Below, piece after piece: positions 27,083 through 35,650 of a stretch of 64,000 bases of DNA. The stretch's first letter is position 1. Each line of letters begins with the position of its first letter. A model generated the notes under the pieces. The model made no database searches. It had not been told where the DNA came from and saw only the letters and a list, made by a program, of their open reading frames with translations. The stretch lies in NCBI GenBank assembly GCA_963402885.1, contig OY727095.1:20093001-20157000 (forward strand), read 5' to 3'. The stretch comes from Antedon bifida (Eukaryota; Echinodermata; Crinoidea; Comatulida; Antedonidae). The position numbers were made by a program, and so were the translations under genes.

Positions 27083-28080
27083 TTAAAATAAGTAAAAATT
27101 TACGGATTTTTAAAAATAGAATTCTTGTTTCAAGCAATATTTTTCTCAATTTATTTGATAGAATTCTTGATTCAAGCAATATTTTTCTTAAAGTAGGTAA
27201 GAATATTCCGATTTTGCTTTTACAGAATTCTTGTTTCCAGTAATATTTTTCTTGAAATAAGTAAGAATTTACCGAATTTCATTTTATAGAGTTCTTGTTT
27301 CAAGCAATATTTGTCTTAAAATAAGTAAGAATATTCCGATTTGTATTTTATAGAATTCTTGTTTCAAGCAAGATATTTCTTAAAATAAGTAAGAATATTC
27401 CGATTTTTATTTGTAGAATTCTTGTTTCAAGCAATATTTTTCTTAAAATAAGTAAGAATATTCCGATTTGTATTTTTTAGAATTCTTGTTTTAAGCAATA
27501 TATTTCTTAAAATAAGTAAGAATATTCCGATTTGTATTTTATAGAATTCTTGTTTCAAGCAATATATTTCTTAAAATAAGTAAGAATATTCCGATTTGTA
27601 TTTTTTTGAATTCTTGTTTCAAGCAAGATATTTCTTAAAATAAGTAAGAATAGTCCGATTTTTATTTTTTGAATTCTTGTTTCAAGCAATATTTTTCTTA
27701 AAATAAGTAAGAATATTCCGATTTGTATTTTTTGAATTCTTGTTTCAAGCAATATATTTCTTAAAATAAGTAAGAATATTCCGATTTGTATTTTTTAGAA
27801 TTCTTGTTTCAAGCAATATTTTTCTTAAAATAAGTAAGAATATTCCGATTTGTATTTTTTGAATTCTTGTTTCAAGCAATATATTTCTTAAAATAAATAA
27901 GAATATTCCGATTTTTATTTGTAGAATTCTTGTTTCAAGCAATATATTTCTTAAAATAAATAAGAATATTCCGATTTTTATTTTTAGAATTCTTGTTTCA
28001 AGCAATATATTTCTTAAAATAAATAAGAATATTCCGATTTTTATTTTTAGAATTCTTGTTTCAAGCAATATATTTCTTAA
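27083..28080 (+). repeat. 63-bp satellite array, middle segment
   Basis: About 16 monomers with the order GAATTCTTGTTTCAAGCA, ATATTTTTCTTAAAATAAG, TAAGAATATTCCGATTT, TTATTTG. Each contains one TTAA and is partly self-complementary (ATTCTTGTTTCAAG against CTTAAAATAAGTAAGAAT). It is bounded by the piggyBac TTAA at 27083-27086 and the Kolobok TTAA at 28077-28080. Minus-strand open frames here are repeat artefacts. Confidence 0.9.
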
Positions 28081-28192
28081 AGTGAAAGATACAAATATGG
28101 TAATACAAACGTTGAAATGAATAAAGATATATATACAGAATTGATCTAGCGTATTTATTTTTTTTTTCAAACTCATTAAGTATGAAAAAATT
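28081..28192 (+). repeat. Left terminal inverted repeat of the Kolobok element
   Basis: 112 bases that pair with 33585-33695 almost without mismatch, apart from a T-run that differs in length and base content near 28155. Transposase binding sites and a promoter are expected here. Confidence 0.9.
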
Positions 28193-28436
28193 GCGTTTTT
28201 GTTTGTCCTTTTTGTAAGCCTACGCCCCGCCCACATTGTTTTTTCTGAATCTCAGACATTACGTCATTATGACATCGTGACGTCATTCTTGTACACTCTT
28301 TCTACTTCCGGGACTGCACACGTGTGAACCGCGATGCTGTTTTGGTATTCTTTTTCATTGCGATCCTTTCATCAACGTACCGATACATAATTCAATAGCC
28401 TAAAATATTTTCGATTAATTCTGGTCTTTATTCAAC

Positions 28437-31400
28437 ATGCGCTGTGTGGCGTATGGTTGCAGCAAAACCCATGCTGATGGGGTAAGTTTTCACATGTTTC
28501 CGAAGGAGGTAAAATTGCGGAGGGAATGGACTTTGGCTACCCAAAAAACCAGAAAGGATTGGAAGCCTAGTAAATACTCGGCGTTATGTAGCGACCATTT
28601 TGAACTCGAATGCTTCGAAGAGAAGGCCCGGTTTGGGAGTGAGCTCGGCGTAAGTGGCAAAATAAACAAACGGTTAAAGCCAAATATGAAGCCAACGATA
28701 TTTGTGAAGCCTAAAAGTAAAACATCAAGTCAAAGTATTAAAAAAAAACGAAGATCTACCGCCTATGAAAAAAGGGAGCACAACAGGGTAAGTCAATTAT
28801 ATTGTAGGCCTTTCTTCTATTGTTTTCGCCCCGTTCGGCGTTCGTAATTTTATTTTATTGTAATAAACAAGTCACATGACTGACTACATCAATCATTCCC
28901 ATCTTAAAATATTATTACTACATTATTCAAGCCTTAGCTTTACTTGACTAAATTACTAGTACTACTCACTCAGGCGAAAACTGTATTATTTAATTATTGT
29001 TAAAATTTAGTGGTGATTGTATTTGCCCATGGAGTTATAAAGCTAATTTTATAACTCCATGATTTGCCTAAGCCTACATAATTCTATAATTGTTTGGTTG
29101 GTTTTCTAGGTTCTTGAATCAATACTCATTCCCTCTATGGACAAGAGTGAAAGTTGCGAAACAGACAACGAAGTGCCGGTGATGATGGATATGCAACTTA
29201 CAGCTGAAAAAGAAACACAAGTAAGTCCTTTTTCCAAACATAATTTGGAAATTTCATTTGAGAAATAACTTTATTTTGAATTAAAATTGAATTGAAATTA
29301 TTTTTAGTTTCATTCTGGTCACATTATTATTTTAAAATTTCTTGAGAATGTACAAATTTAATATTGAATATTATACAGTACTAATAATCTGTATTTTCTT
29401 TTAGACAACCGAACTAACGGTAGTACACTGTGCCTGTTGTAGTCATGCCAAACCAAAGATAAAATTGAAGAATTCAAGCTTTCAATGGAATGGACGTCCT
29501 AAAATGATGGATAAAGGTTTGTACAACACCAGATATTTTATAAAATACCAGAATAAAAAAAAAATGTTGTTTTATAATAATTATAATTATTTCTATACAG
29601 AATAAAACACAAGATGATTTCTATTGGGCTGTCAAGTAAAGCAATCAAACAATAACTGTACAGCAACCAATTATAAATACCCTATATTCTACTAACATGC
29701 CTGTTCTATGTATTTTAAATATAGGAAATCAGATATTTCCTGTGGAAGAAGTGAGACAACTGCCTGAGAAACAAACGAACATAGAGCCAGATTCAGATTT
29801 TAATGAAGAGACGGACAGTGAGGAAGACGAAAGTGATGCTGAACCCTGTTATGATGACGAAAAGCAAGATCCTGATTACATTCCTTGTGATGATGATGAG
29901 GATGCTGACGATATTGAAATAAATGCGTAAGTAATTTTCATATTACATATTATATTGATTAAATGTTTTTATTTTTTAAAATTCTGTTGTAATACTGCTA
30001 CTGTATATATATAAAAAAAAGGCCCTCTGTTCATTTTTTTAGTACACCACCTGATGTATACAGAGGACGCAAGTACCTGGTATGTGAAAATGAATTGTTG
30101 GCCGCTTTTAATACTTGCGTAATGTGCGGTCATCCATCAACAAGCAGGATTGCATCAACAATTGGGACATTTTGTCGGGTGAAGCAGGAATGCATCAATT
30201 GTGATTTCCAACGAATATGGAGTAGTCAACCATTCATAAAGAATGTGCCAGCTGGCAATTTACTGCTCTCGGCTGCAATTTTGATGTCCGGGAGTTCTGT
30301 AACCAAGAGCTTGCGCCTTTTTAGTCACCTAAAGATGGTAGCCATTTGTAGGAAAACTTTCAACGAGCATCAAAAGATGTATTTACTGCCAAGTATCCGA
30401 CAAGTCTGGAGGAACCACCAAGAGAAGGCAATTACCAATTTGAAGGAAGATGAGAGCGTTGTTTTGGGAGGAGACGGTAGGGCAGATTCTCCAGGGCACT
30501 CTGCCAAATATGGCAGCTACACTATGATGGACCTGAAGCTAAATAAAATTATAGAGATACAAATTATTCAGGTACTTTCTCATTACATAATAGCTGTATA
30601 CAAAGATACTAACCTACAAACTTTTCCCTTTGAAACCAAATAATTAATTGAAACTATTTTTATTAAATAAGCATATTTATTCTATTACAGTCGAATGAAG
30701 TTGGTAGTAGCTACCATATGGAAAAGGAAGGACTGATAAGGGCAGTCAATTTCTTAAAAGAAAATAACATAGCAATATCAACCTTGGTGACGGACCGGCA
30801 TTGCCAAATAAAAAAATGGGTGCGGGAAAACCTACCAGATACAAAACACAAGTTTGACCTCTGGCATATTGCAAAAGGTAAATACATTTCAATAATTGTT
30901 TTTCAAAAAAGCACAACTATAATTTAATTATTCAATTTTGTTAAATTATTTATTTTATTTTATTAGGGGTTTCAAAGAAGTTGGAGGCAGTGGCAAAGCT
31001 GGTTAGTGGTAAAGATGTTAAGCCATGGATCCACAGCATAAGCAACCACATGTACTGGTGTGCAACTTCAACTGTGGATGGTGATGGCAAAATGATGCTT
31101 GCAAAGTGGAAATCAGTGGGGCAGCATATCCAAAATATACACACGGGCCATAGCGATGTGTTTAAAGAGTGTGAGCATGGCGAACTTCAGGGAAGAGAGC
31201 GAAAGAAGAAATGGATGACGACAGGTAAATTCATGACAATAATTAAACATAATTCTATTAAATAATAGACTATCAATTGTTTAACTGTTTTTAGGCTACA
31301 AATATCTGAATAGAATAGTCACCTAATATTACAACTACCTAATCAATTACCTTACTTTTTACTGTACAGGTAGCGCAGCCCTACTTAAAACATTGGACGT

Positions 31401-32187
31401 CATAAACAATCCTCGGCTATGCAAAGATATTGTTATGATGAGCGAGAAGTACCAAACTTCAAGACTCGAGGCTTTCCACTCAACCTTAAACCATTTCGCA
31501 CCGAAGATGACGCATTTTTCATATTGGGGCCAGACATGCAGGCAAGTACTTCACAAATGTTCAAAACTTAGATAGTTAACGACAGTGACACATTAATAAA
31601 ATAAATAAAAACATAAGCCAAATTTTAAAGAAATGATAGTTTTAGTCATTGAAGAGTTTGTGTGTAAACTTTAAAAAAAAAATTGTAAATAATGATTGAT
31701 ATTAATAACAATTAACTGATTACTGTATTATCTCAACAGAACATTTCTTGCAGGACTGCATTATAATGAAAATTCCGATAGAGAACAAGCAATCACTGCA
31801 GAAGGAAAAGAACGCTTTTGTGTTGCCTTCCCAAAGTTCAAACATGGTGGATACAGTGTCAAAAAAGTGTACAAAGATCCAACGTATGGTGAGTTTTAAG
31901 CAAACACATTAAAAGAAAGTCAGATCCCAAAATAGAACAAATGTATAAATTTATTACTTAACACCAACATACTATACATAACATTCAGTGTTTTGATTTG
32001 AGTAGTTTCTTAATATGTACATAATTGTTTCACAGACTATGTTGATGAAATCATCCATCTGGTCGTAGCTTTCTGTCAAGAAGGAAATAAGAAACCCCTA
32101 CAAGAAACGCCTGGTGCATTATGCAGCGAATTCATCCACCCTGAAAAGGACGAAGCTGTTGCTCAACACAGTTCAAGATTTTGCTAA
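28437..32187 (+). CDS. THAP-domain Kolobok-type transposase, 10 exons
   Basis: Exons 28437-28787, 29110-29220, 29405-29516, 29725-29926, 30043-30571, 30691-30877, 30967-31224, 31370-31541, 31740-31888 and 32036-32187 join in compatible phases into 740 codons without a stop. Introns are GT-AG except the eighth, which starts GC (31542). Residues 1-85 form a THAP zinc finger (C3, C8, C-S-D-H, then PTIF) for DNA binding. An acidic linker follows at about 195-258 and a Cys cluster at about 284-312. The catalytic part has GDGRADSPGHSAKYG (Asp about 403), VTDRHCQIKKW (Asp about 470), FDLWHIAKG and SRLEAFHST (Glu about 616), a plausible DDE triad. The start is the first ATG, immediately before the THAP cysteine. 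It stops 15 bp from the end of the convergent gene. Predicted to move the element at TTAA. Confidence 0.85.
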
Positions 32188-32202
32188 TGTGATAGCAATA
32201 AC

Positions 32203-33433
32203 TTACAATTTAGGGTATTTAAAACCTACATACTGTGTTGATGGAAATTTATCTCTAATTGCTTTAACAACATATGCGGGTAAAACAACACGATTGTTTT
32301 TTCCCAAGTAGCCCCATATCCACTTAGTGCAATTCCTGTAACCTGTGTGACGATACCTCCTGTAAATAAAAAAATATAGTTCATGTACATAATAAATAAA
32401 GCACTGTTGTTGTTCTTTTACAGTATAAACAATTGCTTTGTTCTTATTTTCAGCTTTTCTTTTTGATATGCAAATGAGTAAATCAAACATGTTTCAGTAC
32501 AAAAAGCATTCATACAAAGAATGGTGGTTTGCAATTGTGTGTAAATATAAATAAAATGACTTACTCGTTAACTGTTGCATTAGCTTTTCTATACTTTTTC
32601 GGAGTGTTTTCATATGCCATTTGGAGGGCCCACACATCAAGGCAGTTGGTAGTGAAGCCTGGGTGTTCCACGATGCATTGCAAATGGCCTGTTATTGGAG
32701 CATCAGTTTCCTTTGGTGTTTATAGGACCAATTTCCTTACAACACACACACTCCTCAAATGCTTCTGCAGACACACATTTTCCACATAAACACCTATAAA
32801 ATCCAATTTAAAACATTTATAAACACTGTAGTGTATTGAGACAGCATTATGAACTTATTTATAAAATTGCATGAAAGCTAGGGCAAGTCTATTTTTGTGG
32901 TTCAGACAGCCAAGCCTCTTCATTTGTGCTACACCACTAGCCTAGACCACTAGTAGTACTGTAGTAAATAGTGTATGTGTGAAAAATTCAAGCGTTTTTT
33001 CCTACAGTTAGCTCTCTCTCTACAACACAAGACAATGCTTAGGCCTAGTGTATATCGTTACATGTCCCTGGGCTGCATGTGCCTACAAAGCAGTGAATTT
33101 CAGGTTAAAACATATTATAATTAATATATATTATTAAATACTAAATTAAACTAGGGTATATAACAATATTACAATTTACTGTGCGAGACAAATTCGTGCG
33201 AGGCGGACGGCCAAAAGTATCGTGGCTACTCTTGCGCGCGAGTAGCCTACTGGCATGGCACTGGCCTAACTACGAAATAGAGCCTTAATTTACAATACAA
33301 AACTTTACCAATTTGTGTTTCCTAGACGCATTTGTTGAGCATTTAGCTCTGCTTCCTCTTCACTATCCCCACTGGTACTATCGTCATCCGTAGAAGAAGC
33401 ATACGGTTCGTACATGTAAGGTTGTATATCCAT
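32203..33433 (-). CDS. P2X7 C-terminal-domain-like protein, 3 exons
   Basis: Exons 33433-33309, 32793-32565 and 32359-32203, with GTAAAG and GTAAGT donors. Exon 1 starts MDIQPYMYEPYASST, is acidic, and ends RLGNTNW. Exon 2 continues CLCGKCVSAEAFEECVCCKE, then CIVEHPGFTTNCLDVWALQM. Exon 3 has YRHTGYRNCTKWIWGYLG and IRDKFPSTQYVGFKYPK. This order of cysteines and the final RHxxYR..W..G / IRxxFP..QYxGFK block match the cytoplasmic 'ballast' domain of P2X7, a zinc-binding module, without any channel part. In exon 2 the frame shifts by one base near 32705 (A-rich AAAGGAAAC), so the gene is broken here or the base is a sequencing error. An alternative start lies at 33487. The function in the transposon is unknown. 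Confidence 0.8.
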
Positions 33434-33584
33434 CGTGCATAATAACAAAGCTACAGAACTGTCAGAATTGTACTGCCAGCGCTCCACACTACTGACAGGA
33501 CTAGTACTAAAATGACGTCACGGTCTAATCATAGCCTGAGGCGACAAAACTCGGGGGCGGGGCTTAGCTAATATAGAAATTCTT

Positions 33585-33695
33585 AATTTTTTCATACTTA
33601 ATGAGTTTGAAAAAAAAAAAAATACGCTAGATCAATTCTGTATATATATCTTTATTCATTTCAACGTTTGTATTACCATATTTGTATCTTTCACT
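33585..33695 (-). repeat. Right terminal inverted repeat of the Kolobok element
   Basis: 111 bases, reverse complement of 28081-28192. GC-rich CGCCCCGCCC and GGGGCGGGGC motifs lie just inside both repeats. Confidence 0.9.
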
Positions 33696-35590
33696 TTAAA
33701 ATAAGTAAGAATATTCCGATTTTTATTTGTAGAATTCTTGTTTCAAGCAATATTTTTCTTAAAATAAGTAAGAATATTCCGATTTGTATTTTTTAGAATT
33801 CTTGTTTCAAGCAATATTTTTCTTAAAATAAGTAAGAATATTCCGATTTGTATTTTTTAGAATTCTTGTTTTAAGAAATATTTTTCTTAAAATAAGTAAG
33901 AATATTCTCATTTGTATTTTTTGAATTCTTGTTTCAACCAAGATATTTCTTAAAATAAGTAAGAATATTCCGATTTTTATTTTTTGAATTCTTGTTTCAA
34001 GCAAGATATTTCTTAAAATAAGTAAGAATATTCCGATTTTTATTTGTAGAATTCTTGTTTCAAGCTATATTTTTCTTAAAATAAGTAAGAATAGTCCGAT
34101 TTGTATTTTTTAGAATTCTTGTTTTAAGCAAGATATTTCTTAAAATAAGTAAGGATATTCCGATTTTTATTTGTTGAATTCTTGTTTCAAGCAAGATATT
34201 TCTTAAAATAAGTAAGAATATTCCGATTTTTATTTGTAGAATTCTTGTTTCAAGCAATATTTTTCTTAAAATAAGTAAGAATATTCCGATTTGTATTTTT
34301 TAGAATTCTTGTTTTAAGCAATATTTTTCTTAAAATAAGTAAGAATATTCCGATTTGTATTTTTTGAATTCTTGTTTCAAGCAATATATTTCTTAAAATA
34401 AGTAAGAATATTCCGATTTTTATTTTCAGAATTCTTGTTTCAAGCAAGATATTTCTTAAAATAAGTAAGAATATTCCGATTTTTATTTGTAGAATTCTTG
34501 TTTCAAGCAATATTTTTCTTAAAATAAGTAAGAATATTCCGATTTGTATTTTTTAGAATTCTTGTTTTAAGCAATATTTTTCTTAAAATAAGTAAGAATA
34601 TTCCGATTTTTATTTGTAGAATTCTTGTTTCAAGCAATATTTTTCTTAAAATAAGTAAGAATATTCCGATTTGTATTTTTTAGAATTCTTGTTTCAAGCA
34701 ATATTTTTCTTAAAATAAGTAAGAATATTCCGATTTGTATTTTTTAGAATTCTTGTTTTAAGAAATATTTTTCTTAAAATAAGTAAGAATATTCTGATTT
34801 GTATTTTTTGAATTCTTGTTTCAACCAAGATATTTCTTAAAATAAGTAAGAATATTCCGATTTTTATTTTTTGAATTCTTGTTTCAAGCAAGATATTTCT
34901 TAAAATAAGTAAGAATATTCCGATTTTTATTTGTAGAATTCTTGTTTCAAGCTATATTTTTCTTAAAATAAGTAAGAATAGTCCGATTTGTATTTTTTAG
35001 AATTCTTGTTTTAAGCAAGATATTTCTTAAAATAAGTAAGGATATTCCGATTTTTATTTGTTGAATTCTTGTTTCAAGCAAGATATTTCTTAAAATAAGT
35101 AAGAATATTCCGATTTTTATTTGTAGAATTCTTGTTTCAAGCAATATTTTTCTTAAAATAAGTAAGAATATTCCGATTTGTATTTTTTAGAATTCTTGTT
35201 TTAAGCAATATTTTTCTTAAAATAAGTAAGAATATTCCGATTTGTATTTTTTGAATTCTTGTTTCAAGCAATATATTTCTTAAAATAAGTAAGAATATTC
35301 CGATTTTTATTTTCAGAATTCTTGTTTCAAGCAAGATATTTCTTAAAATAAGTAAGAATATTCCGATTTTTATTTGTAGAATTCTTGTTTCAAGCAATAT
35401 TTTTCTTAAAATAAGTAAGAATATTCCGATTTGTATTTTTTAGAATTCTTGTTTTAAGCAATATTTTTCTTAAAATAAGTAAGTATATTCCGATTTGTAT
35501 TTTTTGAATTCTTGTTTCAAGCAATATATTTCTTAAAATAAGTAAGAATATTCCGATTTTTATTTGTAGAATTCTTGTTTCAAGCAATAT
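33696..35590 (+). repeat. 63-bp satellite array, right segment with higher-order repeat
   Basis: About 30 monomers. The block 33782-34668 recurs almost base for base at 34669-35555, a period of 887 bp or about 14 monomers. Rare variants such as TTCTTGTTTCAACCAAGAT and ATTCTTGTTTTAAGAAATA are shared at the same offset. Confidence 0.9.
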
Positions 35591-35650
35591 TTTTATTAAA
35601 TATTGCTTGAAACAAGAATTCTATAAAATAAAAATTTGTAAATTCTTACT
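35566..35650. repeat. Inverted junction ending the satellite array
   Basis: GAATTCTTGTTTCAAGCAAT is followed within about 15 bases by its complement ATTGCTTGAAACAAGAATTC. The array turns round here, then decays into AT-rich sequence by about 35700. Confidence 0.85.

Follow-up and report, generated by a model that had tools for sequence, protein, structure and literature searches.

A Kolobok transposon of Antedon bifida with a second gene related to the cytoplasmic tail of P2X7

A gene for a protein that resembles the cytoplasmic tail of the P2X7 receptor, with no channel, lies inside a transposon of the crinoid Antedon bifida. Does this module belong to the element or to its host, and what could it do for a transposon? 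We addressed these questions in a stretch of 64,000 nucleotides (contig OY727095.1 of assembly GCA_963402885.1, positions 20,093,001 to 20,157,000 of the forward strand), hereafter the window, and in the rest of the genome. A preliminary description, made from the window sequence alone, had proposed that the P2X7 'ballast' module is, or once was, borne by transposons. The link itself is not new and has been in print since 2022. The available sections of Kojima & Bao 2022 (PMC9587614) name the protein KolX, tie it to Kol0 Kolobok elements and state that it shares the cytoplasmic ballast of P2X7. According to the same sections, a P2X4-like gene fused with KolX to give rise to P2X7, zebrafish nanor is a likely domesticated KolX, and the invertebrate ballast proteins are Kolobok parts. 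Rump et al. 2020 (PMC7016195), in the part available, reported ballast-domain genes whose linkage is conserved in animals ranging from sponge to molluscs, arthropods and echinoderms; the stem 'transpos' is absent from that part of the text. A full-text literature search that paired Kolobok with P2X7 or with KolX returned no relevant paper beside PMC9587614.

The element and its two genes

The element spans positions 28081-33695 of the window, has long inverted ends and, as the preliminary description had stated, is flanked by TTAA. The inverted arms (28077-28166 and 33610-33699) measure 90 nt including the TTAA and are 99% complementary; a gapped alignment extends them to about 112 nt. The element starts with AG and ends with CT, that is, 5'-RR ... 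YY-3'.

28077..28080, no strand: left TTAA target-site duplication (the same ends at TTAA, with different flanks, in five further copies)
28081..28166, plus: left terminal inverted repeat, ungapped part (5'-AGTGAAAGATAC..., 5'-RR; about 112 nt with the gap)
33610..33695, minus: right terminal inverted repeat, ungapped part (...CT, YY-3'; complementary to the left arm)
33696..33699, no strand: right TTAA target-site duplication (shared element ends at TTAA)

The insertion splits a 63-bp tandem array, of which 27150-28081 and 33696-35600 lie to either side. The same TTAA context recurs in its units, and the empty site can therefore be read from the flanks. Most units of this array carry TTAA, and a TTAA-rich array would be a favourable target. 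TTAA and shared termini were found at both ends in 16 of 18 loci from families A-E, the alignment having stopped short of the left end in L016 and L028; these families start with AG or AA. Both the 4-bp TTAA target duplication and the RR/YY termini, the latter unlike piggyBac, are features of the Kolobok superfamily.

The plus strand carries a THAP/DDE transposase gene of ten exons (28437-32187), whose spliced model of 741 codons, stop included, has an open frame. The THAP transposase of the preliminary description is thus borne out, with a Pfam THAP match of 4e-13. Exon boundaries below are those of the spliced model, and catalytic positions in exons 5 to 7 are also from alignment.

28437..28787, plus: exon 1, THAP domain
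29110..29220, plus: exon 2
29405..29516, plus: exon 3
29725..29926, plus: exon 4, acidic (by eye)
30043..30571, plus: exon 5, GDGRADS holding the first catalytic D; CxxC pairs (by eye) close to the exon start
30691..30877, plus: exon 6, second D in TDRH; DLWH is the C/DxxH motif
30967..31224, plus: exon 7, Cys/His positions between the second D and E
31370..31541, plus: exon 8, catalytic E in TSRLEAFHS, GC donor at its end
31740..31888, plus: exon 9
32036..32187, plus: exon 10 with the stop codon

The intron after exon 8 must use a GC donor (GC-AG), since the frame then reaches the stop, which it does not from the GT donor four bases on. The motifs GDGR-DS, TDRH/SDRH, D-x-WH and E-x-(Y/F)-HS align across the transposases of three lineages. 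In Pfam, the window transposase matched MULE (0.0015) and DDE_Tnp_ISL3 (0.004), both under the cut-off, and no Kolobok-named family; the transposase of another locus, L031, matched PF20700 'Mutator' at 1.9e-10. A motif search of the window transposase and six KolX proteins found no [DE]HxY, the HCF-1-binding motif. The DDD/E triad with C/DxxH between the second D and E, a Kolobok feature in the available sections of PMC9587614, is present. The Kol0 pattern of section 10 of that paper, as available, is likewise seen by eye: a zinc finger lies between the second D and E, and the CCHC after the first D is absent, the window transposase having no Cys between its first and second D.

The KolX gene lies on the minus strand:

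33309..33433, minus: exon 1 (MDIQPYMYEP, acidic; from translated frames and the spliced model)
32565..32793, minus: exon 2 (CLCGKC ... CVCC ... C), with a frame change in the window copy; it reads through in L030 and L032-L035
32203..32359, minus: exon 3 with the stop (RYRHTGYR ... IRDKFP ... QYVGFKYP); the seventh zinc-site Cys is Y (Pfam P2RX7_C, 6.3e-6)

The two genes are convergent, with the transposase stop ending at 32187 and the KolX stop at 32203, leaving 15 bp between them. The preliminary description had reported this arrangement and spacing, together with an order of motifs that we find as quoted, but it had taken the gene for an intact one. In the window copy KolX is broken. The three exons total 511 bases, a multiple of three plus one; the frame of exon 2 shifts near 32712-32719; and exon 3 has Y in place of the conserved Cys of its (L/I)P(S/A)C motif, a residue that L030 and L032 retain. 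Six of the seven zinc-site cysteines are left in this copy, compared with all seven in L030, L022 and L029. L033-L035 are identical to L030 in the KolX codons compared. The introns are GT-AG.

The proposed kinship with the P2X7 tail held in profile searches. Exon 3 alone matched P2RX7_C (PF20478) at 6.3e-6, the three joined exons at 1.9e-12 when X was placed at the frame change, and the KolX copy of L030 at 2.1e-14 (26.7, 47.9 and 54.3 bits against a curated cut-off of 23.5). The window gene is absent from the whole-genome P2RX7_C matches listed at E <= 0.001. A PDB search with E up to 10 matched four sequences, all of them P2X7 (best 3.9e-6); matches under 0.01 were P2X7 chains only. The lack of a channel was confirmed as well, no P2X_receptor match being found among the window proteins with E up to 10. 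We infer from its seven cysteines that KolX binds zinc.

KolX and the P2X7 ballast, or ZCD, have in common the pattern WCxCxxC ... CC ... C ... (I/L)PSC, R(H/Y), IRxx(F/Y)P and YxGF; KolX differs in its separate first exon and in having no channel domain. By our own reading of the five residues named as contacting GDP in rat P2X7 (PMC7016195, in the part available), all nine lineages keep R546 and R578, four of the nine keep H547, and none keeps R574 or K583. The available part of that paper says that H547 is not found in invertebrates; here an H547-like histidine is present in lineages W, D, G and A.

We are therefore highly confident that the element is a Kol0-type Kolobok, its plus-strand gene a THAP/DDE transposase and its minus-strand gene KolX, with the zinc-cysteine 'ballast' module of the P2X7 tail. 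With Kol0 of the Kolobok-1_XT type, as given in the available sections of PMC9587614, it shares TTAA, RR/YY ends, a DDE domain with C/DxxH and zinc finger, and a second protein resembling the P2X7 tail. The Kol0 lineage encodes KolX, which is found here in broken form. These sections do not spell out the Kol0 gene order; here it is convergent, with the stops 15 bp apart. KolobokP, described in the same sections, also carries a second gene on the opposite strand. That gene is a His-Me finger nuclease, whereas the second gene of the window matches P2RX7_C only in Pfam and the ends of its element are inverted.

KolX in other copies and lineages

The preliminary description had suggested looking in related genomes for other TTAA-flanked copies with both genes. 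We found KolX in further copies of the same family and in other families of this genome. A DNA search with the window element (all 14 candidates scored, the counts still being lower bounds) recovered at least a second full-length copy on C7 (98%), four internally deleted copies and one truncated piece on C14. The four deleted copies, or 3.3-kb derivatives (L030, L033, L034 and L035; on C10, C11, C12 and C14; 99%), lack element positions 688-2999.

28768..31079, plus: stretch missing from the four 3.3-kb derivatives (query 688-2999 unmatched; the joint was read in L034, and L034 and L030 were translated)

These derivatives are TTAA-flanked, nearly identical to each other and keep KolX open. Their break points are common to all four, which probably reflects one deletion event. 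In the two derivatives translated, L030 and L034, the THAP exon runs on in frame across the deletion into exon 7 and the C-terminus of the transposase, a joint expected by chance in one case out of three. In the C7 full-length copy (L032), transposase exon 7 lies in two frames and the C-terminus of KolX differs. The two genes may have parted in this family: the window copy has an open transposase and a broken KolX, the C7 copy frame changes, and the derivatives an open KolX. If KolX is needed, the window copy would depend on KolX from another copy.

The derivatives recall the P element of Drosophila, which encodes a THAP transposase and whose internally deleted KP copies keep the THAP part in frame. 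The likeness lies in the THAP transposase and in an in-frame deletion that retains THAP; the P element belongs to a different superfamily. That a 3.3-kb derivative serves as a trans-acting partner or KP-like repressor, with KolX and the truncated DNA-binding protein forming a regulatory pair, is a speculative idea to which we give little weight.

In the whole genome (315.6 Mb), the P2RX7_C profile gave 42 matches at E <= 0.001. Among 10-kb stretches taken round 20 of these places, 18 contained a transposase match on the opposite strand downstream of KolX, the exceptions being L014 and L015. Conversely, a search with the L031 transposase produced at least 96 matches in at least 43 clusters (88 of 136 candidates scored). 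A P2RX7_C match lies within 6 kb in 27 of the 43 clusters listed, always convergent and downstream (27 of 27). Seen from KolX, 33 of the 42 matches are at most 6 kb from a Kolobok transposase cluster among those listed; the other nine are four derivatives, L015, two in L014, C16:18903122 and C8:23533881. The last of these does have a transposase by tblastn.

Sixteen of the 43 listed clusters have no profile match within 6 kb. Ten of them cover 77-146 of 483 residues, and the other six were inspected. The window cluster and C13:5629889 (in pieces, by tblastn) hold KolX sequence despite the missing profile match, and the cluster at C14:9801980 is cut off before KolX. No KolX was found in the stretches inspected at C8:20390021, C8:20724518 and C13:5096476. 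The clusters at C8:20390021-20391073 (L039) and C8:20724518-20725541 (L040) resemble each other and are remnants of a Kolobok transposase that contain stops.

As copies do not represent independent events, lineages were counted alongside. The convergent order holds in nine of nine lineages compared and in a tenth, partial one (L043). Transposase p-distances among the nine KolX-bearing lineages are 0.51-0.72, with one pair at 0.31. Hence the ballast-like module is borne by transposons in at least nine lineages of this genome, which upholds the central reading of the preliminary description.

Several loci showed further peculiarities. In L014:1880-3339 the last exon of KolX is present twice in tandem behind a first exon, with no transposase match in the stretch. 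Just upstream of a KolX gene in L031, an ORF (1929-2402) resembles by eye a LINE-type endonuclease. The first exon carries a Y-x-F/Y-E-P motif in L022 (IPYNFEP), L027 (QAYMFEP), L029 (QPYQYEP), L030 (QPYMYEP), L012 and L014 (both HGYAFEP) and L038 (QGYAFEP), accompanied by acidic stretches in L022, L027 and L030. By eye it could not be made out in families A, C and E, where the assignment of the first exon is provisional. This motif is a possible docking peptide.

Family C includes four full-length copies, the query among them, shown as 100%, and one shorter copy at 99%. In family B, the C-terminal half of KolX is hardly basic (net +1) and the first exon is neutral. This family also has short derivatives with both ends kept, which match the element only up to about query position 600 and again from about 4949 (40 of 61 candidates scored). 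In two of them, C10:18412939-18413907 and C7:6796372-6797503, KolX is missing beyond roughly its first 50 codons. We had considered that non-autonomous copies always retain KolX, and these copies led us to reject it; they indicate that the whole of KolX is not needed in cis.

Constraint on KolX and its possible roles

Between families C and E, KolX has a pN of 0.153 and a pS of 0.796 over 111 codons, and the transposase a pN of 0.225 and a pS of 0.843 over 498 codons; pS being saturated, the pN/pS ratios are upper bounds only. The comparison of KolX from L012 and L014 gave a pN of 0.178 and a pS of 0.71 over 60 codons. The duplicated exons of L014, with no transposase match nearby, show pN above pS (0.153 and 0.088), as expected of unconstrained sequence. 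To judge from these substitution patterns, KolX is constrained between families C and E. Within families, KolX shows 10 synonymous and 16 non-synonymous differences, too few to show selection. We also considered co-divergence as proof that KolX and the transposase are inherited together and discarded it, as the correlation of their distances (r 0.71) lost significance, at 0.31 or 0.24, when one close pair was thinned.

Could the gene be a host passenger captured by a single copy, as the preliminary description had allowed if other copies proved to lack it? Its GT-AG introns are like those of host genes. However, KolX is carried by the second full-length copy and four derivatives of the same family, sits in the same convergent place in eight further lineages, accompanies 27 of the 43 transposase clusters listed and is constrained between families. 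Moreover, about 490 kb separate the two P2X loci, both on C7, from the closest P2RX7_C match listed at E <= 0.001. We reject the one-copy passenger as extremely improbable. In the opposite direction of transfer, an ancestral Kolobok would have taken up an animal ballast gene; the linkage reported from sponge to echinoderms (PMC7016195, in the part available) would suit such an old host gene. We consider this direction unlikely. No P2X locus found in the genome carries the module, and a transposase cluster is present within 6 kb for 33 of the 42 P2RX7_C matches, with one more match beside a transposase seen by tblastn only (L027) and four in derivatives of the window family. Section 16 of PMC9587614, as available, also treats the invertebrate proteins as Kolobok parts. 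The direction from transposon to P2X7 rests on Kojima & Bao 2022, in the sections available.

Because KolX is constrained, and convergent with the transposase gene in every case where the two were found together, it is probably a working part of these elements. The explanation that we favour as a whole, and hold to be quite probable, is a Kol0 Kolobok whose KolX is made by the element and acts with the transposase as a zinc-bound accessory. According to this model, KolX would form a folded, zinc-bound module whose N-terminal tail is acidic and whose C-terminal half is basic in most lineages measured. It would act in trans, assisting the transposase at some step such as end binding, complex assembly or protection of excised DNA. 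Many lineages retain KolX at the same place and under constraint, which makes such assistance the most likely role; association and constraint are what point to it. Taken by itself, the assignment of KolX as an accessory protein of transposition is tentative, with a somewhat less than even chance of being right. Almost equally likely is a role in regulation or against the host: KolX might regulate transposition of its own element or antagonise DNA repair or silencing in the host, without being a cofactor of the transposase, and we regard this as a serious if slightly weaker candidate. A zinc module joined to a Y-x-F/Y-E-P first exon, seen in several lineages, could be a docking protein, and the vertebrate module, having joined a receptor, works without a transposase (PMC9587614 and PMC7016195, in the parts available). 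The short derivatives without a whole KolX fit a trans-acting factor of either kind. However, nothing in our analysis separates a regulator from a cofactor, and a regulatory KolX is putative.

The ballast module and its original function

The P2X channel family of the host is represented by 12 exon matches in two places on C7 (29.63-29.66 and 31.88 Mb). The nearest P2RX7_C match being about 490 kb away, exon-wise profiles indicate that the module belongs here to transposons and not to the receptor. Zebrafish nanor, likened here by its description in the available sections of PMC9587614, is a stand-alone protein with the same module, encoded by a host gene without a transposase.

Beyond what is in print, our results make small additions: the convergent order wherever both genes are found, the constraint on KolX, the H547-like histidine and the 3.3-kb derivative, of which the last, with KolX open and a THAP fusion, is mildly new. 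Nine lineages within one genome lend independent support to the view that the P2X7 tail module lives in transposons. Near-identical copies occur in several families, and an element with KolX could therefore serve to explore the original function of the P2X7 ballast.
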